DNA of 42,591 nucleotides from Elusimicrobia bacterium RIFOXYA2_FULL_50_26 (GTDB taxonomy: Bacteria > Elusimicrobiota > Endomicrobiia > Endomicrobiales > XYA2-FULL-47-53). Below the pieces are notes generated by a model, which saw nothing but the letters and a program-made list of their open reading frames with translations, did not search any database and was not told where the DNA came from. The position numbers were made by a program, and so were the translations under genes. The DNA lies in NCBI GenBank assembly GCA_001800355.1, contig MGVF01000038.1:1-42591 (forward strand). Reading direction: 5' to 3'. This document shows, piece by piece, positions 5,564 through 21,350 of this stretch (the first letter of the stretch is position 1; every line of letters begins with the position of its first letter).

Positions 5564-8500
5564 ATGTCAGAGAAAAAACCTAAAGAACAGATAATCTTCA
5601 ACGACCAGTACCTGGTTATCAAAAAAATAGGCCAGGGCGGTTTCGGCATTGTATGGGAAGCGTTCGATTTTAGCCTGAAGAATTTCGTGGTAATCAAGGA
5701 GTTGCTTGAAGATTTTGCCGAAACCAGATTTATAGAGATGTTTTACAAGGAAGCGCTGATCGCAAAGAACCTGATTCACGACAATATCGTGCGCGTCCAG
5801 CATTTCTGGAAGGGTGATAACGGGTCGTACTATATCGTAATGGATTACGTAGTGGGGCGCGACCTGGGACACCTGCTTAAAAAATGCGCCGAAAAACAAA
5901 TGAAATTGCCGTGGGAGCTGTCGGTTTTCATATGCGGTTCCATGCTAAAAGCGCTTGATTACGCCAATCGCCTTGCCAAGGACGTTACAACAGGCAAGCC
6001 CTACGGCATAGTTTACAGGGATGCTTCGCCCGGCAACGTAATGATATTTTTTGACGGCAACGTGAAGCTGAGCGATTTCGGCATTGCAAAGACAGCCGAG
6101 GAACTGGGACGCAAGAGCAAGCAACGTATAATAACCGGCAAGTATGCCTACATGTCGCCGGAACAGATTCACGGCGATTCCGACATTGATCACCGTTCGG
6201 ATATATATTCGGTCGGCATCGTGCTTTATGAGATGCTTTCCAATTTGCAGCTCTACAAGGGAACTTCGGACGCCATACACAAGCAGGTTACGGAAGGAAA
6301 AATAGATCTAAAGCCGCTTGAGGACATGCAGGTGCCGCATGAACTTATAGAGATCGCGCTTAAAGCCTTGGAAAAGGACAGGGAGAAACGTTACCAGACG
6401 GCCCTTGAAATGTTCCGCGATCTGCGCAGGCTGCTTAAATTCAAGGAAACAGAAGAGCTTTCCGCGGAACTTGCGGCATTTACAAGCAAGGTAATGGCCG
6501 AAGAGCTGGAAGGCGAAGATACGTTGCTTGACTGGGTACGCCAGATAAATCTTCAGGATGTCAAAAGCGATAAGGATGTAAAAAGGATTTACTGCAGGGA
6601 TTTTATCATGGGCGATCAGTCCGCCCCGGAACAACCGGCGCAGCCGCCGGTTACTTCTGGCGATGCGGAAGCGCCTAAGGATACTGTGTCGCTTGAGGTA
6701 AAGAGCAGTGATCCCGCTCCGGCGGCGCCGCCGGTAAAGGTACGTGTTCCCGAGCGGAAAAAAGCGCCGGCCCCGGCAGCGGTAGCGGAGCATAAGGTGG
6801 AAGAGCGCGGCAAAACGGTATTCGAAGAAGTAGGCGACTGGCTGGCAAAAAAGTTCAAGGTTTACAAAAAGCGGATGTTGCGCATTTCTATAGCTGTTGC
6901 GATTGCCGCCGTATTGTTTATGGCCGCCGATACGTTCATGCAGATTACGCCGCTGGGTAAAAATATTTACGCGCACCTTTACCCGCCCGACGTCGTTATA
7001 ACAACCGTGCCGGGTGGCGCCCGTGTTTCGTTGCAGACACGGGATGGCAAGTATATATTGTCAAATGCGGATTCCGTTTACCCTGTAGAATTAAGAAAGG
7101 TCATACCGCAAAGTTATGTGCTTACAGCTGAAAAGGAAGGCTATAAGCCTTTCGAGCGTGTCATAAAGATAGAAGAAAAAGGCGCCGGTTCCAAAACCGC
7201 GCAGCGCATAAATATTGTTTTTGAATTTGTTCTTAATATCAATTCAGATCCTTCCGGCGCGGATGTGTTTATTGACGGCAATAAGTTCGGCGTTACTCCA
7301 TGGAAAGGAGATTTAGTCGCGGGTGAACACACGGTAAAACTCATGTTGTCCGGTTATGAGAATCTCGGTTCAGAGGCAAAGGAATCTCACGAGGGCCAGT
7401 GCAGCCTTGATTTCACCCGTGCCACGGATAGTGAAATATTTTCAGGCATTGATAAAGTTTACTGGAAGTACGACATAACAAGCGAAAGCGGTGTCAAAAC
7501 ATTTAATCTTGCCGGCGCGCTTTTTAAACGTTACAACATCACTTCCTCGCCCAACGGGGCGTCGGTGTACGTAAATGACGAGCCGCAGCGGCGCGCCATG
7601 ACTCCCGCCGTAATTCCATTTAAAAACGGGGAATATTCGCTGCGCCTTACCGACGCTAACGGGAGATACGAAGAAACGAGAAGAACGCTGAAGGTTGACA
7701 AGGAATCCGACAACAAGGTTTTTGTCGTAATGAATCGGTGGCTTAAGGTAAAAGTCGGCATAAAGGATGAGCCTGGAAAGCCTGTCGGCGCCACGGTCAA
7801 GATAACCGGAACAGGCAATTCGTTTTCGGCCGAGAAGAAAATAACCAGTGATAAACCGGTGAGGTTTGCGTTGCCGCGGGGCAAATTCAAAATAGTTTTC
7901 GATGCGGGCAAGGAATATAAATTATTGACTTTTAAGAACTTTGAAATCGGCGAAACCGGCGAACTTGCCGGCCACATGGAATACAGCGATACAACGTTAA
8001 AAGTTATAGTGAAGGAAACGGCCACGCAAAAGCCTATAGGCGATGCCTACCTGTGGATGCGCGGTCAGATAGCAGGCAAAACAGACAGCAGCGGCTTCTG
8101 GGAAAATACTGTAATTTGTGGTACCGGGACCATACGCATAGTTGCCAAGGGTTACGCCGAGAAGACTCTTGATTATAATGTTATACCGGGCGCAAAGGAA
8201 GATAACTCACTTCTTGTTTCCCTTGATCCGGAACTCCCGGCGGCTTTGCCCAGGCCGTCATCGCCTGTGTCGTCAGGAAACGCTAATAATAAGCGCGATG
8301 AGGTTGTGGTGCCCGGTCGTGCCGGCGGCTCGATCAGATACATTGAAAACCCTGTAACGAATAAGCCCGTGATAAGCGATACTAACCCGGACAGGAGCCG
8401 CGTTGTAATTATCTGTCCGAATTGTAAAAAAGAATACCCTGCAGGTTCCAGGAAACTACGGTTTTGCATTAATTGCGGCAAACCTCTTAAATGGGAATGA
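5564..8500 (+). CDS. Transmembrane Ser/Thr protein kinase with extracytoplasmic PEGA-type repeats and C-terminal Cys4 zinc ribbon
   Basis: GQGGFGIVWEA (P-loop), VVIKELL (Lys), GIVYRDASPGNVMI (catalytic loop), LSDFGIAK (DFG), YMSPEQ; TM 'MLRISIAVAIAAVLFMAA'; PEGA-like 'VVITTVPGGARVSLQTRDG' and 'LNINSDPSGADVFIDGNKFGVTPWKGDLVAGEHTVKL'; 'CPNCKKEY...RFCINCGKPL'. Confidence 0.93.
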   Translation: MSEKKPKEQIIFNDQYLVIKKIGQGGFGIVWEAFDFSLKNFVVIKELLEDFAETRFIEMFYKEALIAKNLIHDNIVRVQHFWKGDNGSYYIVMDYVVGRDLGHLLKKCAEKQMKLPWELSVFICGSMLKALDYANRLAKDVTTGKPYGIVYRDASPGNVMIFFDGNVKLSDFGIAKTAEELGRKSKQRIITGKYAYMSPEQIHGDSDIDHRSDIYSVGIVLYEMLSNLQLYKGTSDAIHKQVTEGKIDLKPLEDMQVPHELIEIALKALEKDREKRYQTALEMFRDLRRLLKFKETEELSAELAAFTSKVMAEELEGEDTLLDWVRQINLQDVKSDKDVKRIYCRDFIMGDQSAPEQPAQPPVTSGDAEAPKDTVSLEVKSSDPAPAAPPVKVRVPERKKAPAPAAVAEHKVEERGKTVFEEVGDWLAKKFKVYKKRMLRISIAVAIAAVLFMAADTFMQITPLGKNIYAHLYPPDVVITTVPGGARVSLQTRDGKYILSNADSVYPVELRKVIPQSYVLTAEKEGYKPFERVIKIEEKGAGSKTAQRINIVFEFVLNINSDPSGADVFIDGNKFGVTPWKGDLVAGEHTVKLMLSGYENLGSEAKESHEGQCSLDFTRATDSEIFSGIDKVYWKYDITSESGVKTFNLAGALFKRYNITSSPNGASVYVNDEPQRRAMTPAVIPFKNGEYSLRLTDANGRYEETRRTLKVDKESDNKVFVVMNRWLKVKVGIKDEPGKPVGATVKITGTGNSFSAEKKITSDKPVRFALPRGKFKIVFDAGKEYKLLTFKNFEIGETGELAGHMEYSDTTLKVIVKETATQKPIGDAYLWMRGQIAGKTDSSGFWENTVICGTGTIRIVAKGYAEKTLDYNVIPGAKEDNSLLVSLDPELPAALPRPSSPVSSGNANNKRDEVVVPGRAGGSIRYIENPVTNKPVISDTNPDRSRVVIICPNCKKEYPAGSRKLRFCINCGKPLKWE

Positions 8501-8533: not shown

Positions 8534-9739
8534 GTGAAAATGAACTCCATGGAAAATCTCTCAAAAATAGCAACGCTCCTGATAACCGTGATCATGATTC
8601 TAGTCCATGCTCAACAGTTACCCGCCGCATTTTCAAACACAATAACCTTCCAGGGTAAACTTACCGACGACTCAGGCAACGCCTTAAGCGGTAATTACGA
8701 TTTCACTTTCAAGATTTATTCCATTGTTACGGAAGGAACTTTGCTCTGGGAAGAGGATCACGATTCAATCGTGGTTGCAAACGGGCTTTATTCCGTGCTG
8801 CTGGGTGAGAATACGCCCCTGGGACTTGATTTTAACGCGGATTACTGGCTTGAAATAAATGTAAGTCCCGCGGGCGAAAATTCATTTGAAAGGTTATTGC
8901 CAAGGCACCGTTTGGCGATGGCTCCCTACTCCGCCAACTCAGCCCGGCTTGGCGGCCTGGGTTCGGACAGTTTTGTTAATTCCACAAATCCCTACTGGCT
9001 TGTTCTTACCACCGGCGGCGTTACCTCGCTTCATACCCACGATGCCGGTTCCGTAATAAATCATCTTGACAGCGGCGAATACTACAATGATGTAAAAGTA
9101 TCCAGCGCAATCTGTTCAGACAGGCTTTCCGGGTTCGCTTACAGCCATTTTGTTACCACTTCCACGACACAGGTAATAAACGGGGCCAAGACGTTTACAG
9201 GCAATATGAACGCGGCCGAAAATTTGAACATTGGCGGGCCGGGATACTCGGTTAATTTTTCCAGCAACGTTTCGGTAGGTGATTTGTTGCAAGCCGAGAC
9301 GGCAACTATAAACGAATTAAGCGTTAATTCCCTCAAAAAAGCGCCGGGCGTGGTTGTCCTTCTGTACTGTGATGAAACACAGGGTGTGGACGTCAATGAT
9401 ACAACATCCGAGACAAACAGCAAGGCGTACCTGCTTGCGGCCAATAACTATTCAAGGATTATAGTTGAAAGTGAAGTTTACACGTATAATCTGCGTAACG
9501 CCAATGATATTCCTGAAATAACAGTGTCGCTTCTGATTGGTTTTAATGAGAAGACTTTCACGTTTCGCAATATAGGCACAACCGATACGAACTCCGGGAG
9601 TAAGGTCAATAGTACGCTGAAATTCAGCGCAGTACAAAATAATGCGGCATGGATAGTGGTAAGCATTGACCCGGATACGGCGGATAACGATATCGGGGGG
9701 CGGGCATTAAGCTTAAGGGTGTACGGCGTATTACCCTGA
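8534..9739 (+). CDS. Secreted surface protein, 'QGKLTD' N-terminal domain family (paralog of next gene)
   Basis: N-terminal signal-like segment; 'ITFQGKLTDDSGNALSGNYDFTFKIY...NGLYSVLLG...YWLEINVSPAGENSFERLLPRHRLAMAPYSANSA'. Confidence 0.75.
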   Translation: MKMNSMENLSKIATLLITVIMILVHAQQLPAAFSNTITFQGKLTDDSGNALSGNYDFTFKIYSIVTEGTLLWEEDHDSIVVANGLYSVLLGENTPLGLDFNADYWLEINVSPAGENSFERLLPRHRLAMAPYSANSARLGGLGSDSFVNSTNPYWLVLTTGGVTSLHTHDAGSVINHLDSGEYYNDVKVSSAICSDRLSGFAYSHFVTTSTTQVINGAKTFTGNMNAAENLNIGGPGYSVNFSSNVSVGDLLQAETATINELSVNSLKKAPGVVVLLYCDETQGVDVNDTTSETNSKAYLLAANNYSRIIVESEVYTYNLRNANDIPEITVSLLIGFNEKTFTFRNIGTTDTNSGSKVNSTLKFSAVQNNAAWIVVSIDPDTADNDIGGRALSLRVYGVLP

Positions 9740-9759
9740 TTTTTAGAGGATTCAATAAA

Positions 9760-10380
9760 ATGCGATTTATAAATAGTGGTTTTTTTGTTTTGTTTTTGAT
9801 CCTGTCGGTGTTAACGGCAGATATTTCAGGCGCGTTGCCCGGTGTTATCAGTTTCCAGGGGAAACTGACCGATGCCGACAATAACAGTGTCAACGGTTCA
9901 TATGATTTTAAATTCACATTGTACGATAATGCCACGTCAGATTCCGAAGTGTATAAGATCTGGACCGAGACGCAGTATGGAATAGCCGTTTCAAACGGGT
10001 TGTACAGCGTCGAGTTAGGCAGAGCCAACCCGGAACTTTCGGCAATAACATTCAACGCGCCTTACTGGCTCCAGGTAGAGGTTTCACCTGCCGGTTTGGG
10101 AAGTTACGAAACGTTTTCCCCGCGTCACCGGCTTACCGAGGCTCCCTACGCATTTAGAAGCGAATACGCCAACAATCTTGCTGCTTCAAGCGTCGTTATA
10201 AGCACTATAACCGCATCCAGCATTTCCGTTTCCAATACTTTTAAAATGCCCGTAGTAACCAATTTGCCGGCAACTCCGTCTTCCATAGGCATGTTATATT
10301 ACAGGACGTCAGACAACACTGTACACGTTTCAACTGGTACTGCGTTTAATGCCTGGCGGCAGCTTAACTGGCAGCCGTAA
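9760..10380 (+). CDS. Secreted surface protein, 'QGKLTD' N-terminal domain family (short paralog)
   Basis: Signal peptide 'GFFVLFLILSVLTADISGALP'; 'ISFQGKLTDADNNSVNGSYDFKFTLYD...NGLYSVELG...PYWLQVEVSPAGLGSYETFSPRHRLTEAPYAFRS'. Confidence 0.75.
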   Translation: MRFINSGFFVLFLILSVLTADISGALPGVISFQGKLTDADNNSVNGSYDFKFTLYDNATSDSEVYKIWTETQYGIAVSNGLYSVELGRANPELSAITFNAPYWLQVEVSPAGLGSYETFSPRHRLTEAPYAFRSEYANNLAASSVVISTITASSISVSNTFKMPVVTNLPATPSSIGMLYYRTSDNTVHVSTGTAFNAWRQLNWQP

Positions 10381-10386
10381 TATAAA

Positions 10387-11613
10387 ATGAATTTATTAAA
10401 AAAGTGCGTATTATTTTTCCTTCTTACGGTCGCCGTCCCCGATGGTTGGGCGAACCTGTCCACGGGTACGAGTGTTTCTTCTTTTGATGTTTACAGTTGC
10501 GGGTTTAGCACAGCGTCTTCATCTTCTTACAGAAACTTCGGATTGGTCGGCCAGGCCGCCTGCGGAGCTTCCGCGAGTGCGAGTTATAAGAATTACGCGG
10601 GTTTTGTCCCTGCTTTCGTGCTTATACTGGACGTGGTTATATCGTTCATTGACGAGTCGCCCTCTTCCGGCGAATGGCAGCAAACCACCAATGTAACCTG
10701 CCATATAACGGTGGAGACATTAGAGGGTAATCCCGTTTCAGGAGTAAAATACCGCATTGCAAGCGAAGGCGCGGACGAAGCCGTATTTTCACCGTGGCGG
10801 AGCGATGCCGTTATCGAAACAACCTACAGCGGCAGCGAGGTGCGCTTCCAGGCGGCAATTCCAGGCGCGGCGCTGGACTCGTTTGCCGAGGGACAGGACA
10901 ATTTTATACAATGGCGCGCAAAAAATTCCGGCGGCGTGGAAGCGTTTTCCGGTAAATATCGCGTGCGCGTCATGGCAAACGATGCTCCTGAAATTGCCAT
11001 ACTGCAACCCGATGAGAAAAGCGGCGTCGCTTCCGACAGGCTTTTTGTTGAGGCGCAGTTGACGGATGCATGCTGGGGCATAGACGAGAATTCCGTTGAG
11101 CTTAAGCTGGATGATGCCAATAACTCTAATATCGCTCTTGTTACATCAGCCGCAAACCCGGGAATATATTCGGCGCCTTCCGGTAAGGTTTCCTATACTT
11201 ATGCCGGTGCGCCTCTTGCGCCGGGGGCTACTTATAAACTGACCGTTTCGGCAACTGACAAAAACGGCAAAAATAGCTCTTCGGTTCTTTCGTTTAAGTT
11301 GTTAGGGGGGGCGATCCCGGATATTGTGCCTTACCCTTCGCCGTTTGATCCAAAGAAGGAGAGCGTGGCCATACGTTATGTGTTGCGCAAGGATTCAGGA
11401 GTAAGCATTAACGTATACGATATGTCGGGCCGGCTTGTTAAAGAGGTCATTGATAACGAACCACGGAAGGCTGGAACGTGTGAGGATACGTGGACGGGAC
11501 GGAATTATGCCGGCGAAGGCCTGGCAAACGGCGTTTATTTCTGCGAGGTCGTGGCAACGGATGATGAAGGAGAACACCGCCGCTATTCTTCGCTGGCTAT
11601 TTTCGGAAAATAA
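10387..11613 (+). CDS. Secreted protein with C-terminal FlgD Ig-like domain
   Basis: Signal peptide; C-terminus 'PYPSPFDPKKESVAIRYVLRKDSGVSINVYDMSGRLVKEVIDNEPRKAGTCEDTWTGRNYAGEGLANGVYFCEVVA'. Confidence 0.8.
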   Translation: MNLLKKCVLFFLLTVAVPDGWANLSTGTSVSSFDVYSCGFSTASSSSYRNFGLVGQAACGASASASYKNYAGFVPAFVLILDVVISFIDESPSSGEWQQTTNVTCHITVETLEGNPVSGVKYRIASEGADEAVFSPWRSDAVIETTYSGSEVRFQAAIPGAALDSFAEGQDNFIQWRAKNSGGVEAFSGKYRVRVMANDAPEIAILQPDEKSGVASDRLFVEAQLTDACWGIDENSVELKLDDANNSNIALVTSAANPGIYSAPSGKVSYTYAGAPLAPGATYKLTVSATDKNGKNSSSVLSFKLLGGAIPDIVPYPSPFDPKKESVAIRYVLRKDSGVSINVYDMSGRLVKEVIDNEPRKAGTCEDTWTGRNYAGEGLANGVYFCEVVATDDEGEHRRYSSLAIFGK

Positions 11614-11614
11614 C

Positions 11615-12664
11615 ATGCGCCATCTTATTATACCCGGCCTAATCAGCCTGCTTATGGTGTTGTGGTGTTGCCCTGCGTATGCCGAGGCAAACCCCGCCGC
11701 CTTTCTAAATACCGGCGTCGGTGTGCGCGCCATGGGCATGGGCGGCGCCTATACCTCGATAAGCGATGATCCATCGGCAATGTATTGGAACCCTGCCGGT
11801 GTGGCAAAAATTCAGCGGCTTGGCATAACTGTCATGGGGCAATCAATGGGCGCGGCGCGTTGGGATACGCTTTCCGATGTTACGCCGGTATACCAGTTTG
11901 TAGGTATTATTTTACCATTGCAGTCATTGAACTTTATTAATATACTTGGTGATGATAACGCGGTGGGTATCGGGTATATAAGTAATGCCCTTGGCGGGGT
12001 CCCGTATACTTTTCTGGACGATTCGGGTGTTATCGTGCGTGAAGAATTTGATGACAGGGAGTGTGCGTGGTTTTTATCGTACGGCTTTTCGCTTTTGGGT
12101 ATGGATTCGTTGTTGCTCGGCGGTACTTTAAAGTACATAACGCAGGAGTTTACGCGCATAGAAGGAGCCAGTGCCAGCGGTTATGATTTTGATGCAGGGA
12201 TGATTTATTCCCTGGACGAAGGCTTTAACGTGGGTGTTCTACTTCAGCGCGGGGCCGAGCTTCAATGGGCTAACGGCCACACGGATGCCGGGCCGTTTAC
12301 TACAAAATTAGGGGTTTCCAAAAAGTTTGTCTTACCCGAAAGCTTCTCCGTGCTTGGAAGCGCGGATATTGTCCAGCGGCAGACAACGCCCCTTTTTTCA
12401 CATTTTGGCGCGGAGCTTGGGTATGAGCAGGAGCATGGCGGGGAAATATTCAGCATGGAAGGTATTTTTCTTCGACTGGGGCTCGACGGCGTGGCGCTCG
12501 AAGACAGGTATGAATACCGTGATAAAATAAATAACAACGTCAATTTTACGGCCGGTATCGGCGTAAAGTTTTCGTACAGGAAATTCGGCATTCAACTTGA
12601 TTATGCCATGGGTTCATACCGTTTAGGAGACAAAAACAGGTTTTCGTTGAATATATATTTATAA
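11615..12664 (+). CDS. PorV/PorQ (UPF0164)-like outer-membrane beta-barrel protein
   Basis: Track start 11435 corrected to ATG 11615, which starts a signal peptide 1 bp after the upstream stop; 'AAFLNTGVGVRAMGMGGAYTSISDDPSAMYWNPAGVA' is the family N-terminal motif. Confidence 0.82.
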   Translation: MRHLIIPGLISLLMVLWCCPAYAEANPAAFLNTGVGVRAMGMGGAYTSISDDPSAMYWNPAGVAKIQRLGITVMGQSMGAARWDTLSDVTPVYQFVGIILPLQSLNFINILGDDNAVGIGYISNALGGVPYTFLDDSGVIVREEFDDRECAWFLSYGFSLLGMDSLLLGGTLKYITQEFTRIEGASASGYDFDAGMIYSLDEGFNVGVLLQRGAELQWANGHTDAGPFTTKLGVSKKFVLPESFSVLGSADIVQRQTTPLFSHFGAELGYEQEHGGEIFSMEGIFLRLGLDGVALEDRYEYRDKINNNVNFTAGIGVKFSYRKFGIQLDYAMGSYRLGDKNRFSLNIYL

Positions 12665-12676
12665 AGGATTGCAATC

Positions 12677-13666
12677 ATGAAAAAACATTGCCGTTACATT
12701 ACGCTGATCGTGAGTGTTGTGTTTTTCGCAGGGGCAGCCGCCAGGTGTTTTGCAGACAAGAAAGATGTTACCGACCCCGTGTTGAAGGAAATAATTTCAT
12801 CCTTCGGCGACCGGATGCCGAAATTTATTGACAAGCACGGTGCCGACATTTTTGTTGTTGACGGCACGGTAACGCGCGGCGCTTTAATGCAGGTGTTCTA
12901 TGAGTATGATAAATCGCTTAAAATCCCCAGGAAAGAAGCCGTTTCCAGGCAGGAATTAGACGAGATTAAAAGAAAATTGGCCATCCTGGAAAAGAATATC
13001 ATGGCGCCTCCTCCTTCGCTGGCGAAAAACGATATGATGCAATTAATAAACGAACTAATGCCGAATATGCCTGCGCTTCTGGATAACAGCCTTATGAATT
13101 CCAAGGTATTCGCCAGCCTCAGGGACCAGGTGCATTCCGCGAATTCCGCCGGAACAGCCACCTCCGCCGGCACTGTTGACACCCGCGAAATTGATGAGCT
13201 TGGCAACAGGATCGCGCTGCTTGAAAAAAAGTTGTTGAATGCGCCGGTTGCGGCTAAACACAACGCTTCATCTGATGATACCGCACGCTTACAACAGGCG
13301 GTTGCCGGCATGGACCAGAGGTTGAAAAAACTGGAGGGAAGGCCACAGGCAACGGCCAGCGGTGTTTCCGGGACGGATATAAATAAAATCATAGGGGAGT
13401 TGCGTCCGGAAATAGATGATATAGTGAACGAAAGCGTAAAGGATTCAAATGCGGATTCCAAAAGTTCCTCAAGAGAGATGCTGAAAAATATTGCAAAAAC
13501 GCGCAGCGATATCGCCAAAATCAACCGGCGGCTTGAAACGATTGAAACAAAATCCGGCGCCCAGGCCAGAAAGAACGGCGGAACAAGCTTGTCTTCGGCG
13601 GGATCTACATTGACCAAGGTAACACTGGGTCTTAGCATGGTCGCCGCGTTTTTTATCGCCCGGTAG
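12677..13666 (+). CDS. Envelope coiled-coil protein with signal peptide and C-terminal hydrophobic anchor
   Basis: N-terminal 'YITLIVSVVFFAGAAARCFA'; heptad-rich segments; C-terminal 'LTKVTLGLSMVAAFFIAR'. Confidence 0.65.
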   Translation: MKKHCRYITLIVSVVFFAGAAARCFADKKDVTDPVLKEIISSFGDRMPKFIDKHGADIFVVDGTVTRGALMQVFYEYDKSLKIPRKEAVSRQELDEIKRKLAILEKNIMAPPPSLAKNDMMQLINELMPNMPALLDNSLMNSKVFASLRDQVHSANSAGTATSAGTVDTREIDELGNRIALLEKKLLNAPVAAKHNASSDDTARLQQAVAGMDQRLKKLEGRPQATASGVSGTDINKIIGELRPEIDDIVNESVKDSNADSKSSSREMLKNIAKTRSDIAKINRRLETIETKSGAQARKNGGTSLSSAGSTLTKVTLGLSMVAAFFIAR

Positions 13667-13694: not shown

Positions 13695-15956
13695 ATGCCA
13701 AAAGTTATACTGGAGAAAAAAGCGGAAGTTATGGCCGAATTCAATTTTTCCCGGAAGAAAGCCATCACCGTGGGAAGCGGCAAGGAAAACGACATAGTAA
13801 TAAAGGACAAAAGCGTTTCCGAACACCATTGCACTATTTCATATAAAGACGGCAAATATGAGCTAAAAGATAATAATACACTTTCCGGCACGCAGGTGGA
13901 TGGGCGTTCCGTAACTATTTATGAACTTCGCATGGGAAATCGGATAACGGTCGGGGGACATTCTGTTGTATTCAGGTCTATTCAATCGCGCAGGGCAAAA
14001 GCAGTCGCCCCAAAAGAAACCGACGATGATTCATTTTCCGGTGGCCCGGGCGAGGACAAGATGCTATTTCTTCTCGGCATATACGGAAAATTTGAAGGTA
14101 AGAAATACGAGATAAAAAACGGCGAGACCTTTATAGGGAGGGAAGAAGTAACCCCCAGGGGAATACCTAACGACATCGTCCTTACTGATGATATGACTGT
14201 TTCCAAGGGACACGCCAGGATAACGCGCGCCGGTGACAAGTGCATATTGACCGATACGGGAAGCACCGGTGGCGTAGGCATAAACGGCGCAAAGGTAGGC
14301 CAGCTGAATGACGTCGAGATTAAGCCCGGCGACGAGATAGCGATAGGAAGAACTATTTTTCGTTTTACAGGCGGCGATCCCGATTATTCAGCGCCTAAGC
14401 GTTACGGTGCGGCGTTTATGAAAATCCGCAGGGTTCTAAACGCAACGGTTATTTTGGCCGTGGTGCTGTCTTCCTTATTCTACCTGTTTAAAGGTTTCAA
14501 CGGTATTTCAATCATAAATAGTTCGCCGGAGAGGATTGTTATCCGTTTCGACGAGTCATGGCAGGCAAAGGGTAACACGTCTCATCCCGCGCCGGAAGTT
14601 TATGACATAACTTCTTCTCCCGCTCTTGGCGACATAAACAAAGATGGTGTCAATGATATAGTTTTCGTCAATGCGGCCGGCCAGTTATCCGCATATAACG
14701 GCAAAACGGGTACTACCCTCTGGAGTCCGGTGGAAGTGCAGGCGCCCGGGAAGGCCTCGCCCGTGCTTGCCGACATGAATAATGACGGTGTAACGGACGT
14801 AGTCGTGCTTTCCGGGACATCCATGATTTATGTTATAGACGGCCAGGCCGGGGTAGTAATACACAAGGATATGCTTGGCGGCACGATCAGCGATATGTCG
14901 CCCGCGGTGGCGGACATAAACCTCGACGGCAGGCGCGACATCGTGGCTTGCTCCGAAGAAGGAACGGTGTATTTTATTTATTCGCCGGGTTTTGAGCTGG
15001 CTGCGGAAAAGTTACTGGAAACCGTGGAGGGCCCGGTATATGCGTCGCCGGTTATTATAGCCACAAGAAAAATTTCTCCCCTGGTCGTGATAAGTTCATA
15101 TAACAGCAAGCTGTTCTTGTTCAGCGGCAGTTCGCGCGATAAGAAAACGATAGATCTGGTGGAAAGAACAGGCAAGGCGCACCTGATACAATCTTCACCC
15201 GGGTCGGGAGACTTGAACGGGGACGGTATACCGGAATTAATCGTGCAATCGAGCATACCGCAGTATATATCGGCGGTGGACATATCCGGTTTTGAAGTGA
15301 AATGGACTTATTTTGTGGATCCTGTGCCGCCTGCCGAGTTAAAACATAATTCGACGCCGCTTGTTTTTGACATGGACCGCGATGGCGGCGGCGATGTCCT
15401 GGCGCTTTCAGGCAATGGAACTGTATACGGCTTGAAAGGTAAAACGGGTTATCCCGCGGGCGAGTTGTTGTGGAAGTATACCTTTCCTTCGGCGAACAGG
15501 ATTATCTCATCTCCTGCGCTATTTGATTTTAATAAAGATGGCATGCAGGATGCCGTGTTCGGGGGAGAGGACGGAACTATCCATATCTTTGACGGTTTCG
15601 CGGGCAAACGTGAAACCGGCAGGATACTCGCCGCCGTTAAGGCAAGCAATGCTGCAATAACCTCATCCGTCGCCCTGGGTGATGCTGATGGGGACGGCAT
15701 GATGGAGGTGGTATATGGCGATATTGCCGATTCCTTGCAAGTGCTGCGCACGAACGCGAAGGTATTTAAAGCCAGGGTATATTGGCCCATGTTCCTCGGG
15801 GACGCGGCGCATGCCAGTTCTGGCAGCCCGGATCAGGCTGGCCCGTACATTATAATGGTAATGTCTTCGCTAGTGGCGTTGATCATCCTGGCATTGGTTG
15901 AAATAATGCTGAAGAAACGGCAACTGACTAAGAGGCCGCGCGTAGTTTATATTTAA
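13695..15956 (+). CDS. Tandem FHA domains - TM - FG-GAP/VCBS-type beta-propeller - TM protein
   Basis: FHA1 'ITVGSGKENDIVIKDKSVSEHHCTI', FHA2 'ETFIGREEVTPRGIPNDIVLTDDMTVSKGHARI', TM 'ATVILAVVLSSLFYLF', repeats such as 'SPALGDINKDGVNDIVFVN' and 'SPVLADMNNDGVTDVVVLS', C-terminal TM 'YIIMVMSSLVALIILALVEIML'. Confidence 0.9.
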   Translation: MPKVILEKKAEVMAEFNFSRKKAITVGSGKENDIVIKDKSVSEHHCTISYKDGKYELKDNNTLSGTQVDGRSVTIYELRMGNRITVGGHSVVFRSIQSRRAKAVAPKETDDDSFSGGPGEDKMLFLLGIYGKFEGKKYEIKNGETFIGREEVTPRGIPNDIVLTDDMTVSKGHARITRAGDKCILTDTGSTGGVGINGAKVGQLNDVEIKPGDEIAIGRTIFRFTGGDPDYSAPKRYGAAFMKIRRVLNATVILAVVLSSLFYLFKGFNGISIINSSPERIVIRFDESWQAKGNTSHPAPEVYDITSSPALGDINKDGVNDIVFVNAAGQLSAYNGKTGTTLWSPVEVQAPGKASPVLADMNNDGVTDVVVLSGTSMIYVIDGQAGVVIHKDMLGGTISDMSPAVADINLDGRRDIVACSEEGTVYFIYSPGFELAAEKLLETVEGPVYASPVIIATRKISPLVVISSYNSKLFLFSGSSRDKKTIDLVERTGKAHLIQSSPGSGDLNGDGIPELIVQSSIPQYISAVDISGFEVKWTYFVDPVPPAELKHNSTPLVFDMDRDGGGDVLALSGNGTVYGLKGKTGYPAGELLWKYTFPSANRIISSPALFDFNKDGMQDAVFGGEDGTIHIFDGFAGKRETGRILAAVKASNAAITSSVALGDADGDGMMEVVYGDIADSLQVLRTNAKVFKARVYWPMFLGDAAHASSGSPDQAGPYIIMVMSSLVALIILALVEIMLKKRQLTKRPRVVYI

Positions 15957-15983
15957 TTTTTCAAGTTGTTCAGGAGGAGAAGT

Positions 15984-17438
15984 GTGAAGGTTACGTATTT
16001 TGCAAAAACGGACGCCGGTAAAGTGCGAAGGGAAAACCAGGACAGCTATGCAATCCTGGAATCGGAAAATCTTTTCGCGGTTTACGACGGCATGGGCGGC
16101 GGGGCGGCGGGAGATTTTGCCAGCCGGTGCGCAGCCGATATTGTAATGGCGTCTTTATGCTCCCTTAAGAAAAAGGACGTGGCGGCTGTCGCCGGTGGTG
16201 GTTCTCCGGAGATCGGAGAGGACGCACAGCGCATTATCTCGGCGGTTCGCATGGCAAACCATGTTCTTTTTAAATTTTCTGAAGCATATACGCGCCTGGC
16301 GGGCATGGGGACTACGGCTGCAATTATAAAATACGATGCTGCTAACAGTGTTATGCACATATTTCATGTCGGAGACAGCCGTGTTTATCGTCTTCGCGGT
16401 GATGCTCTTGAGCTTCTAACCAAGGATCATTCCAAGGTTACCGAGCTTGTTGAGCAGGGCAAGATGCGGGAAGATGAAATAAATATGGTCGAAATACAGA
16501 GTATGATAACACGCGCCCTGGGCATTCAGCATACTGTTAAAATAGATTATCGCATGGAGTATATGAAACCGGGAGATCTGGTTTTGCTTTGCTCCGACGG
16601 CCTTTCCAGCGAAATTGATGATGCCGCCATAAGTAGAATAATGCTGGGCAACGGCGGAGACATCAGAAAGATTACGGAGCAACTGATAAACTCGGCGAAT
16701 GCCGCGGGCGGGAAAGATAATGATACCGTCATAACTCTGAAATTCAATGCAAGCCACGCATTTTTACCTTCCAGTAAGCCAGCCGGCTCCGGTTTCGGCG
16801 CCGTAATGACCGTGTCCGGTGAAACGCCACCGCAGCTTGCGGCGGAGCGGCACCTGGCAAATAGCATTATCGAAGCAGCCAGGATAAAGATACCGGTGTC
16901 AGCCATGGAAAAGAGTATATTCACCAATCCGCTCTATCTTGGCGCGGCCATAACTTTGCTTGTGATAGGTATTGCCGGCTCAGTAGCGCATTTTTCCATT
17001 AGCAAACCGGAAAGGGAGCTTACGGATCTGACGGGTAAAATTGCGGGGCTTCGCCTGGAAGTGCGGGCGCCGTCCGCAGACCAGATAGCGTTGTTTAAAA
17101 AAGCGGACGACAGGATTCAGAAAATGCAGCTATTGCAGGATTGGCACCTTGATACCGTTAATACGACCGTGCCTGTGAAGGGCGCCGAGCTGCGCATAAT
17201 GAAAAACGGCGTGGAAAAATTCAGCGCGGTTACTGCCGGCGTTCCGATTGATGTAAATCTTGACGGTGGCAATTACATTGTGGGGATAAAATATAAAAAC
17301 CACCGCATAATAAATCATAATCTTAACTTAAAAGAAACTATTCGCGTTCCGGTTGAGAAATCAGAGAATCTTCAACCGGTTACGATACTTTTGGTGCCGG
17401 ATAACATTATGTCAGCGCCCGATACCGGCAGGGAATAA
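15984..17438 (+). CDS. PP2C-family Ser/Thr phosphatase with C-terminal TM and PEGA-like domain
   Basis: 'AKTDAGKVRRENQDSYAI', 'AVYDGMGGGAAGDFAS', 'HVGDSRVYRLRG', 'LTKDHSKV', 'LLCSDGLSSEI', 'GGKDNDTVI'; TM 'LGAAITLLVIGIAGSVAHF'. Start moved from 15966 to GTG 15984, preceded by AGGAGGAG. Confidence 0.92.
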   Translation: MKVTYFAKTDAGKVRRENQDSYAILESENLFAVYDGMGGGAAGDFASRCAADIVMASLCSLKKKDVAAVAGGGSPEIGEDAQRIISAVRMANHVLFKFSEAYTRLAGMGTTAAIIKYDAANSVMHIFHVGDSRVYRLRGDALELLTKDHSKVTELVEQGKMREDEINMVEIQSMITRALGIQHTVKIDYRMEYMKPGDLVLLCSDGLSSEIDDAAISRIMLGNGGDIRKITEQLINSANAAGGKDNDTVITLKFNASHAFLPSSKPAGSGFGAVMTVSGETPPQLAAERHLANSIIEAARIKIPVSAMEKSIFTNPLYLGAAITLLVIGIAGSVAHFSISKPERELTDLTGKIAGLRLEVRAPSADQIALFKKADDRIQKMQLLQDWHLDTVNTTVPVKGAELRIMKNGVEKFSAVTAGVPIDVNLDGGNYIVGIKYKNHRIINHNLNLKETIRVPVEKSENLQPVTILLVPDNIMSAPDTGRE

Positions 17439-17448
17439 GGAGGAGCAG

Positions 17449-18204
17449 GTGCCGGGAAAAAATAAAAAGATATTTATTGTAGAGGATAACAAGCCGTTTC
17501 TTGAAACCTTGAGCGATTTCCTTGTTTCCAAAGGATACGATGTGGAAAGTTTGGCGATCGGAAAGGGCGCTGCCGAGAAGATAAAGGCAACCGGTGCCGA
17601 CCTCGTGATGCTCGACATTGTGCTGCCGGATACGGACGGATTTCAGATATGCAGGGATATTAAAAGCGATCCGGTAACAGCGGCGGTCCCCATAATGCTC
17701 ATGACAGGTAATGAAACCATAGACATAGACAAGGGTTTTGCCCTCGGCGCAGACGAATGCATCTACAAGCCATTCAACCTGGAAGACGTTGCCTTGCGCA
17801 TTGCAAGGCTGCTGACGAGAAAGCAGAAGATATTCATCGTTGATGACGACCGCAAAATCGGTGATATGCTTACATTGATGCTTACAGAACAGAAATATGA
17901 CGTGGTTGTGTTTTACGAGGGGAAGGGCGTTGTGGAAACTGCTAAAAAGGAGCGTCCGGATCTTTTACTGCTGGACATAAATCTCGGTTTGCCGCCAGGG
18001 GGGATAGATATATGCGGGGAGTTGAAGGCTGATGCCCTGACCAGGACGATACCCATAATAATGTTTACCGCCAACGACGACGTGGAATCGGTGGAACGCA
18101 GTTTCGCATGTGGCGCCGATGATTATATATTCAAACCGTTCAAGGTGCCGGAACTGCTGCTCAAGGTAAGAAAGTACCTTACATATGTTAAGAACACGCA
18201 ATGA
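17449..18204 (+). CDS. Double receiver-domain response regulator without output domain
   Basis: Two REC domains: 'IFIVEDNKPF...LVMLDIVLPDTDG...IYKPFN' and 'IFIVDDDRKI...LLLLDINLGLPPGG...IFKPFK'. Start moved from 17353 to GTG 17449 after AAGGAGGAG. Confidence 0.9.
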   Translation: MPGKNKKIFIVEDNKPFLETLSDFLVSKGYDVESLAIGKGAAEKIKATGADLVMLDIVLPDTDGFQICRDIKSDPVTAAVPIMLMTGNETIDIDKGFALGADECIYKPFNLEDVALRIARLLTRKQKIFIVDDDRKIGDMLTLMLTEQKYDVVVFYEGKGVVETAKKERPDLLLLDINLGLPPGGIDICGELKADALTRTIPIIMFTANDDVESVERSFACGADDYIFKPFKVPELLLKVRKYLTYVKNTQ

Positions 18205-18229: not shown

Positions 18230-20365
18230 ATGAATTTTGGCAGGAAACTGGTGCTTAGCTCGGCTGTTATAGCTTTTATTTTAGGACACCATGCAGCGCG
18301 TCCCTGCTATGCTTCTAATGTTACGGCCGCAGATTCGCTGCGTTTTGTGCCTGACCCACAGTCTGCCGCGATGGGGGAAAGCATTGTTTCTTTTTCAGGA
18401 TCGCCGGCCGTGATGATTGTCAACCCCGCAGCCATGGTTTATATTTACCAGCCTAAACTGTGTTTAAGCGACCTTATGTTGTGGGAAGGCTTGCGGTATA
18501 ATTTTGCCGGTTTCACCGTGCCCACCGGCATGGGAACCCTGGGTTGTTCGCTGTCGTACCTTTCATACGGAAAGATTCAGGGTTATGGTTATGACGGCGC
18601 TGAATACGACTTGCCTTCCACCTACGATGTGGCGGCTACCTTTGGTTATGCGCTGCCTCTGAAAGTTGACCTGCCGTTGCGCCGGGAGTACGGCAGCGTG
18701 GGCATTAACGTAAAATTTATCGTTAACAAACTGGCAAATTATTCCACGGAAGGCGTGGCATTTGATTTCGGAGGTATTTTCAAGGTGCCGTTCGTGGACG
18801 GATTAAATGCCGCGGTTGTTTATCGTAACGCGGGAACCTCGCTTAAATATACGAAAGATGCCAATGCATTGCCGGACCAGGCGCGGTTCGGTATCCGCTA
18901 TAACAGGCCGGCTTGGCGCAATCTTGCGCTGGTGGCCGATTTTAGCCAGGATATAAACAGCGCCATGCAGGTGTTTTCGGCCGGGGCCAGCATAATGCCT
19001 TTGTACGCCATTACGTTGCGCGGCGGGTGGATCGATGCGGAGAACTCCATCACATCAGGGGTTCGCTGGGGTATCGGTATGGATTTTGATATTTTCTCTT
19101 TAAACTATGCGATGTCGTCATTTAAAGATTTTACAATGTCCCACCAGGTTGGCGTAGATATTCCGCTGGGCAGCATTGCGCAGCCCAGGGCGGCCTACGA
19201 TCGTTACCTCGACGTTTATTTTCAGCGCGCAAAGGATAAATACGATGAGCGTGATTACATAGCGGCACGCCAGCAGATAGAGGAAATACTTTCAGTTTAT
19301 CCGGGACACAAGCAGTCCATCGCCTATCTTGAAAAGATAAGCGTGCAACTTGATAAAATAGACCAGCGGAAAAACTCCAAAATAGAGAAGCTATTGCGGG
19401 AATCGGAAAATGCCGTAATGCGAAACGATATAGAATACGCCAGGAAAAGTTTTAACAGAATTTTAAGAATAGATCCCGATAATGGCGCAGCGCTTGACGG
19501 GCTAAATAAAATCGAAAAAGTTACGGGCGAGGTGCGCGAACAGGATATGAAACAGTGGAAACAGGCGCTTCAATATTTGCATCAGGGCGAATACGTCATG
19601 GCCAAGCTGAATTTCGAGCAAATATACGCGGCTGATACTTCGCGTGACGACGCAAAGCGCATGGTGTTCGAAGCCGAGCAGCGCATAATAGAGATGAGCG
19701 CGGGCGAGATAAACAGGTTTTACAAGCGCGGCACCGCATTATTTAAGAAAGGAAAGTACAGCCAGGCTGTTCCATATTTTGAGGCCGTTACTGTCGCCAA
19801 CCCCAGTTTTATTGATGGGCAAAACTACCTTCTGAAATCCCGGCAGCGTATACGGGAAATAGAGCTGGGTGTTGAGAACAGGGAAACCAACCGTAAGCGC
19901 GAGACTGCCGAAAACGAAATAGCATCGGCTTTCAGCAACGCTTTAAGGCTTTATGACGGCGGCAATAATTATGAGGCGCTGGACGCATTCATGAAATGCC
20001 AGGAGATGGCGCTGCGCCATGATTTCAAGGAATACCTGGATCGCGTCAACAATTTTATCGCAACCATCCGCGCCAACATAGCCGAGCAGTACCTGCGCGC
20101 CGGCAAGAGCCTGGTTGACAGAAACGATGTCGAGAGCGGGCTTGAGGAGTACCGCAAGGGATTGATGTATGATCCCGGCAACGCGCAGGTGAAAGCCGAG
20201 TTTGATATTATTTCACGTTTGCTGACCAAACAATATTACGAGAAGGGAGCGGCGCTCTTTAAAAGCGGCGATGCCGTCGCGGCCAGGCAGATGTTCGAAA
20301 AATCGCTTTTTTATAATCCGGATAATGAAGAGGCGCGAAATGCCCTGGGAAAAATTTCGCGCTAA
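18230..20365 (+). CDS. PorV/UPF0164-like beta-barrel fused to C-terminal TPR-type repeats
   Basis: 'DSLRFVPDPQSAAMGESIVSFSGSPAVMIVNPAAMVY' barrel N-terminus; TPR-like 'AVMRNDIEYARKSFNRILRIDPDNGAALDGL', 'GTALFKKGKYSQAVPYFEAVTVANPSFIDG', 'GAALFKSGDAVAARQMFEKSLFYNPDNEEARNAL'. Confidence 0.85.
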   Translation: MNFGRKLVLSSAVIAFILGHHAARPCYASNVTAADSLRFVPDPQSAAMGESIVSFSGSPAVMIVNPAAMVYIYQPKLCLSDLMLWEGLRYNFAGFTVPTGMGTLGCSLSYLSYGKIQGYGYDGAEYDLPSTYDVAATFGYALPLKVDLPLRREYGSVGINVKFIVNKLANYSTEGVAFDFGGIFKVPFVDGLNAAVVYRNAGTSLKYTKDANALPDQARFGIRYNRPAWRNLALVADFSQDINSAMQVFSAGASIMPLYAITLRGGWIDAENSITSGVRWGIGMDFDIFSLNYAMSSFKDFTMSHQVGVDIPLGSIAQPRAAYDRYLDVYFQRAKDKYDERDYIAARQQIEEILSVYPGHKQSIAYLEKISVQLDKIDQRKNSKIEKLLRESENAVMRNDIEYARKSFNRILRIDPDNGAALDGLNKIEKVTGEVREQDMKQWKQALQYLHQGEYVMAKLNFEQIYAADTSRDDAKRMVFEAEQRIIEMSAGEINRFYKRGTALFKKGKYSQAVPYFEAVTVANPSFIDGQNYLLKSRQRIREIELGVENRETNRKRETAENEIASAFSNALRLYDGGNNYEALDAFMKCQEMALRHDFKEYLDRVNNFIATIRANIAEQYLRAGKSLVDRNDVESGLEEYRKGLMYDPGNAQVKAEFDIISRLLTKQYYEKGAALFKSGDAVAARQMFEKSLFYNPDNEEARNALGKISR

Positions 20366-20751: not shown

Positions 20752-20914
20752 TTACAGCCGAAAATCTGTTGCCTTATAATCGTCCGGCTTTATGACACAG
20801 TCGTCTGGTCGGGCAATGACAAACCTCACTGTAAACCTGCTGAAAAACTCTCCCCTGTCGATTTATTTAATGTTGCTTTTTTCCCAAAATATACGTACAA
20901 TTAGTGAACAACTT

Positions 20915-21350
20915 ATGTTACGCAGCGTGTCATTGCGAGGAGCCTTGGCGACGAAGCAATCCCGTCGTTTTGATACGAAACAGCAAGATTGCTTCGCTTA
21001 CAGGCTGTGTCGCAATTACATTTTGCGTCAAAAATTCTTCTTGCCGTCATTCCGGCGAAAGTCGGAATCTAGATTTTCCGTCGAGGCTGGATGCCGGATT
21101 AACAGACTGTATCATAATTACGTTTTATAGTCAAAAGTTCCTGTTTTCGTCACTCCGGCGAAAGCCGGAGTCCAGATCTTCCGTCGAGACTGGATACCGG
21201 ATTAAGGCATTCCGGTATGACGGACGGAGCAAAATGTAATTACGACACAGCCTGTAAAGCTCTCCGGCATGACGGGTACGGCTAAAAGGCAATTATGACA
21301 CAGTCTGTTAGCTCGCAATGACGGCAACCTTGGCATTTCTTGCGTAACAT
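20915..21350. repeat. Composite nested palindromic repeat island (two repeat families)
   Basis: Outer ATGTTACGC / GCGTAACAT; then GTCATTGCGAGG / CTCGCAATGAC; then a 27-bp inverted repeat 21000-21026 vs 21229-21255 (26/27); inner direct repeats 21046-21102 and 21149-21205 (GTCAyTCCGGCGAAAGyCGGA...GGATTAA). Confidence 0.8.

Follow-up and report, generated by a model that had tools for sequence, protein, structure and literature searches.

The locus described here raises the question of what a protein with tandem FHA domains, two transmembrane helices and an FG-GAP-type propeller does among the genes for a Ser/Thr kinase and a PP2C phosphatase. Bacterial Ser/Thr kinases usually sense through extracellular domains of their own, and most FHA adaptors are found in the cytoplasm; a membrane-spanning adaptor with an outside propeller would represent a third element in kinase-phosphatase switches. 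The gene was found in a 42,591-nucleotide stretch of DNA (contig MGVF01000038.1, hereafter the window) from Elusimicrobia bacterium RIFOXYA2_FULL_50_26. Its architecture is new, assembled from known domains, conserved and undescribed, and the protein probably connects a kinase-phosphatase switch with some feature of the cell envelope. The host organisms have received little study, and in several relatives with small genomes the module is in decay.

Architecture, topology and distribution

The ORF runs uninterrupted on the plus strand from an ATG at 13695 to a stop codon ending at 15956 and encodes 753 aa. Pfam analysis assigned FHA (PF00498) to two stretches at 2.8e-31, the better of which covered positions 1-67 of the 67-position model, and both domains were above the cut-off in a scan of the whole genome. 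Yop-YscD_cpl also matched (2.1e-25), with FHA scoring better; the FHA and FG-GAP scores exceeded their cut-offs by a wide margin. The two domains, FHA1 (aa 1-95, 13695..13979) and FHA2 (aa 123-226, 14061..14372), are followed by TM1 (aa 247-265, 14433..14489), a propeller (aa 305-703, 14607..15803) matched by FG-GAP_3 (PF13517) in four stretches at 1.3e-26, TM2 (aa 719-737, 15849..15905) and a basic C-terminal tail (aa 741-753, 15915..15953), all on the plus strand. TM1 was assigned from hydropathy, charge bias and a long modelled helix (residues 239-275), TM2 from hydropathy and the model, and the tail from ortholog alignment and charge; both hydrophobic segments were found again in all orthologs. 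Because positive net charge precedes TM1 (+5) and follows TM2 (+6), the FHA domains and the tail are predicted to lie inside and the propeller outside. The initial annotation of this DNA had proposed the same order of parts, with cytoplasmic FHA domains and an extracytoplasmic propeller. This architecture held up in the analysis, and the positive-inside charge and the two TM helices support the orientation as a prediction.

The propeller contained seven exact copies of the motif D-x-[ND]-x-D-G (aa 313, 360, 407, 506, 559, 611 and 663), compared with 0.03 expected from shuffles of the region. This excess, together with the near-full-length orthologs in 36 genomes, ruled out a chance origin of the features. 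The AlphaFold2 model, built from a 22-sequence alignment, had a mean pLDDT of 83 and a pTM of 0.64, with propeller blocks mostly at 84-93, and it placed eight strand groups starting at residues 310, 357, 404, 453, 503, 556, 608 and 660. The propeller was thus present in the model, and the earlier count of about seven repeats was right for the motif but one short of the number of blades, the fourth of which lacks D-x-[ND]-x-D-G. The top PDB fold match of the propeller in Foldseek was BamB, itself an eight-bladed propeller of the periplasm, with TM-scores of 0.70-0.77 by target length and approximately 14% identity.

A search of genome contigs with the single protein identified the closest named ortholog in the MAG 'Elusimicrobia bacterium RIFOXYA2_FULL_47_53' (60% identity), as well as one match in a Chthoniobacteraceae MAG that was confined to the propeller. 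Matches were present in 35 of 60 relatives, most of them full length. Among 295 Elusimicrobiota genomes, 36 had a match covering at least 97% of the model, and all of these fell within the order of the source genome (families f1, f2, f5 and f6). The protein is therefore conserved in one order of Elusimicrobiota. A genome of another class (G063) carried the same gene set, with the FHA-propeller protein split over two overlapping ORFs; its gene cluster also includes an FHA-GAF-adenylate/guanylate cyclase (L070, G063:C76, 658-2265, minus strand). Broken copies were found in several genomes of 1.0-1.3 Mb (G026, G046, G031 and G170), and in small-genome relatives several cassette genes appeared broken together (L047, L048, L049 and L077). 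Our search of the open-access literature retrieved no paper on a protein combining FHA domains with an FG-GAP propeller, in line with the initial remark that the annotator knew of no characterised protein with this architecture, although a description may exist elsewhere.

The conserved gene neighbourhood

Every gene of the window was compared with 14 loci carrying an intact FHA-propeller ortholog. The PP2C gene (15966..17438, +) lay directly downstream of the FHA-propeller gene in all 14 neighbourhoods and the kinase gene (5564..8500, +) upstream in 11, the stretches of the remaining three (L037, L040 and L050) ending before its expected place. In the larger genomes the order of the genes between the kinase and the FHA-propeller protein was the same: a secreted protein with a C-terminal FlgD_ig/T9SS-like domain (10387..11613, +), a PorV-family outer membrane protein (listed as 11435..12664, +, with the true start probably downstream of 11613) and a predicted exported coiled-coil protein (12677..13666, +). 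The order was also kept after the PP2C gene, with a protein of two receiver domains and no output domain (17353..18204, +, probably starting after the listed TTG), followed by a PorV-family barrel fused to TPR repeats and predicted to be in the outer membrane (18230..20365, +). In two loci from smaller genomes (L044 and L045) the middle genes were absent and kinase-FHA-PP2C-receiver-PorV/TPR remained. These counts bear out the tie to the nearby kinase and phosphatase that had been proposed from the DNA of the window, and because the operon is conserved, the idea of a scaffold is strengthened. The other role suggested initially, transmission of a phospho-Thr state across the membrane, may or may not apply.

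The partner kinase possesses the VIK, YRD, DFG and SPE motifs and one TM (aa 441-459) followed by PEGA domains. The phosphatase has the DGMGG, GDSR, SDG and DND motifs of the metal site, one TM (aa ~318-341) and an extracytoplasmic tail. Each of these two enzymes, like the FHA-propeller protein, thus combines one cytoplasmic signalling part with a TM. The source genome yielded only three matches each for FHA and Pkinase and two for Stp1-type PP2C, and all its FHA domains and Stp1-type PP2Cs sit in two kinase cassettes. Its third Ser/Thr kinase lies in a 1629-aa open frame (L096, G000:C5:10966-11727).

Several other features were observed. The C-terminus of the partner kinase (window 5564-8500) forms a four-Cys ribbon (CPNC...CINC), the Cys pairs of which are kept in most aligned orthologs; the predicted topology would put this ribbon outside the cytoplasm. 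Two adjacent exported proteins (window 8534-10380) weakly matched the N-terminal model of a mosaic adhesive trimer fibre, NF053851 (38 and 33 bits; cut-off 60). Overlapping ORFs at 20792-21239 of the window contain the repeated peptides SFRRKSESR, SLRRKPESR and HSGESRNLD, which suggests a dispersed repeat element. The PorV family had 26 matches in the source genome, which also holds a 1633-aa frame with three SprA matches below the threshold of that model (L090, L091; C110) and may encode a divergent T9SS-like system. The FHA-propeller protein matched the T9SS-named model NF052323 weakly, through its propeller (44 of 600 bits); its membership in a T9SS was rejected, as T9SS-type features occur only in the neighbours and SprA stays below its cut-off in the genome.

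FHA domains, a candidate ligand and a soluble sister cassette

FHA domains that bind phosphothreonine keep the GR, SxxH and NG residues (PMC1262709). We scored these patterns over 29 aligned orthologs. In FHA1 the Arg of GR was replaced by Ser, Asn or Lys and the Asn of STNGT was absent in all 29 sequences, with Ser invariant and His nearly so; direct alignment with the FHA domain of Rv1747 likewise indicated the loss of both Arg and Asn. In FHA2 Arg149, Ser170, His173 and Ser190 were invariant, as was a downstream NG (N197 G198), but STNGT reads STGGV or similar, with Asn missing from every ortholog (Gly; Ser in L030). Conservation was also highest in FHA2, where mean pairwise identity reached 69% and 32 of 104 columns were invariant; the propeller (58%, 40 of 403) and FHA1 (55%, 7 of 95) followed. 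Both FHA folds are complete and both phosphate-binding sites incomplete, so that of the two complete FHA motifs noted initially the folds stood (Pfam) and the binding residues did not. The view of two phosphothreonine readers in tandem was not supported: FHA1 is ruled out as such a reader by the loss of Arg and Asn in 29 of 29 orthologs, and FHA2 lacks the canonical Asn. The initial annotation had itself named missing Arg/Ser/Asn residues as evidence against its reading; this argument applies to half of the pair, because FHA1 fails, retention of both Arg and Ser being confined to FHA2. As FHA2 is the most conserved part and FHA1 is without Arg and Asn, any phospho-binding would probably fall to FHA2, and it is plausible that FHA2 binds phosphate without the Asn. 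The simplest reading would be that FHA2 has a fixed, specific partner and that FHA1 is no phosphate reader.

A candidate for this partner lies in the kinase. The linker that joins the kinase domain to the TM spans roughly 100 to more than 200 residues and shows almost no conservation outside GKT[VI]FE[ED], which was present in all 13 aligned kinases. In the window this juxtamembrane motif reads GKTVFEE (6809..6829, +) and contains Thr418, the sole Ser/Thr in this linker that at least 85% of the 13 kinases share. We favour the Thr418 region as a putative conserved phosphothreonine docking site for FHA2, and its invariance yields a single-residue prediction. Alternatively, this membrane-abutting motif may be a helix conserved for a structural or dimerisation role.

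Many other Elusimicrobiota have separate ORFs, most of them ~200-310 aa long, that matched the FHA1 half of the alignment. They belong to a second cassette found across the phylum, which consists of a CHASE2-kinase, a PP2C and a soluble tandem-FHA protein. The soluble tandem-FHA gene stood beside a kinase and a PP2C gene in all 17 loci examined, and all three kinases scanned, that of the source genome included, carried a CHASE2 sensor. FHA1 of the soluble proteins was canonical in 17 of 17 cases (G-R, Ser, His and S-T-N-G-T invariant), while the remaining half is FHA-like but degenerate (profile probability of 81% to FHA2 and 92% to FHA1). In direct profile comparison, FHA1 of both protein types aligned end to end from a common 'MPK.LLK' start (E 6e-25). 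Both cassettes are present in the source genome and in G001, and probably in G005. The FHA domain with phosphate-binding residues differs by cassette, being FHA2 in the membrane cassette and FHA1 in the soluble one.

Duplication followed by remodelling would explain this difference. However, the gene order is kinase-PP2C-FHA in the soluble cassette and kinase-FHA-PP2C in the membrane cassette, and the kinases and phosphatases share 31-39% identity between cassettes, a range that independent recruitment would fit too. We regard as doubtful, though worth stating, the fuller proposal that a kinase-PP2C-tandem-FHA cassette, once duplicated, was converted to a transmembrane module, in which kinase, phosphatase and FHA adaptor gained anchored extracytoplasmic parts (a propeller in the case of the adaptor) and phospho-reading moved from FHA1 to FHA2, yielding an undescribed envelope-tethered phospho-scaffold.

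Possible roles and relation to known systems

The role that we tentatively prefer is that of a scaffold anchored in the membrane, which would connect kinase and phosphatase with a partner in the envelope through the docking of FHA2 on phosphothreonine. The protein would reside in the inner membrane, both FHA domains facing the cytoplasm and the eight-bladed propeller the periplasm. Docking on a phosphothreonine of an operon partner, most likely Thr418 of the kinase, would be the task of FHA2, whereas FHA1 would serve as a spacer or as an interaction domain independent of phosphorylation. The propeller would hold the envelope partner, for which the PorV-TPR protein of the outer membrane and other exported products of the operon are possible candidates; kinase and PP2C would thereby be concentrated at the site of that partner, and phosphorylation would set how tightly they are held. 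Such a scaffold is consistent with the retention of kinase-FHA-PP2C even in reduced genomes, the joint breakage of several cassette genes and the confinement of the FHA domains and Stp1-type PP2Cs of the source genome to two kinase cassettes. The conservation of FHA2 and of GKT[VI]FE[ED] within an otherwise variable linker, the catalytic and metal-site motifs of the two enzymes and the cytoplasmic-part-plus-TM build of all three proteins point the same way. On the other side, the lack of the STNGT Asn leaves phospho-binding by FHA2 not assured, the GKT motif may have the structural role mentioned above, co-occurrence, though conserved, is no proof of contact, and a nearby PorV gene is weak evidence in a genome with so many PorV matches.

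It is unlikely that the signal instead runs from inside to outside, with the kinase phosphorylating the FHA-propeller protein or an FHA2 ligand and the effect passing through the membrane to the propeller, which would turn barrel assembly, surface protein export, adhesion or a similar envelope process on or off, as in Chlamydia CdsD or mycobacterial FhaA-MviN. The phosphorylation of both CdsD FHA domains by chlamydial PknD in vitro (PMC2765968) gives this model a precedent, and the BamB-like fold of the propeller and the PorV-family and T9SS-like exported proteins of the operon agree with it; that fold, however, is common to many propellers and the sequence identity is low, and the poor conservation of TM1 and TM2 (22% and 17% identity to the source protein) argues against a finely tuned signal-passing helix. 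We consider the opposite direction, an outside-in co-receptor whose propeller binds a periplasmic ligand and alters kinase or PP2C activity via the FHA region, quite unlikely. The extracellular propeller of M. tuberculosis PknD has been proposed to bind ligands (PMC3601408), and the kinase of the sister cassette bears a CHASE2 sensor, but here kinase and phosphatase have extracytoplasmic parts of their own, and many orthologs have an eroded blade Asp motif, with copy numbers ranging from 1 to 7, so that a Ca-dependent site is not uniformly kept. Finally, a phospho-independent structural protein, building an envelope assembly with both FHA folds as protein-protein modules like the cytoplasmic domains of YscD/MxiG/PrgH, accords with the residues missing from FHA1 and FHA2 and with the Yop-YscD_cpl match, but is very unlikely, given that FHA2 keeps Arg and SxxH without exception, that the gene lies between kinase and phosphatase and that FHA outscores Yop-YscD_cpl.

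The preferred scaffold has partial counterparts among known proteins. CdsD has periplasmic ring domains. It is a YscD ortholog of Chlamydia, a membrane protein with two FHA domains that are both substrates of a Ser/Thr kinase (PMC2765968), and the FHA-propeller protein resembles it in bearing two cytoplasmic FHA domains on a membrane protein tied to such a kinase and in matching Yop-YscD_cpl. Unlike CdsD, which is a ring protein of type III secretion, it has a propeller, a second TM and a cognate PP2C. No T3SS genes were present among the annotated neighbours at this locus; a YscD/MxiG/PrgH-like inner ring was rejected on this ground and because a propeller takes the place of ring domains in the predicted periplasmic part. 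M. tuberculosis PknD, in which a phospho-signalling domain is coupled to a propeller outside the cell (PMC3601408), shares with our protein a cytoplasmic signalling part, one TM and an outer β-propeller; PknD, however, is the kinase itself and six-bladed, whereas the protein described here is an FHA adaptor, eight-bladed and with a second TM. Neither CdsD nor PknD combines FHA domains with a propeller. Mycobacterium Rv1747 also carries a cytoplasmic FHA domain on a membrane protein and, among sequences of solved structure, matches FHA1 best (6cah, 2.5e-8), but it is an ABC transporter, and its FHA domain keeps the GR and NGT that FHA1 lacks.

The FHA adaptors of Actinobacteria (FhaA-MviN/FhaB (FipA) and GarA/OdhI) are likewise encoded or work with a kinase and a PP2C, and the best NCBIfam match of the FHA-propeller protein was an FhaB model below its cut-off (NF049868, 74 of 125 bits); those adaptors have a canonical phospho-pocket and neither the propeller nor the second TM found here. 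BamB shares the eight-bladed fold, but is an outer membrane lipoprotein without FHA domains. The CHASE2 cassette of Elusimicrobiota unites the same three functions in one cluster and has an FHA1 alignable over its whole length. It differs in that its FHA protein is soluble and of ~205-260 aa, with a canonical FHA1 and a degenerate second domain, and in that its kinase has CHASE2 and its phosphatase no tail. This soluble sister cassette provides an internal comparison, with the phospho-pocket in the other FHA domain.
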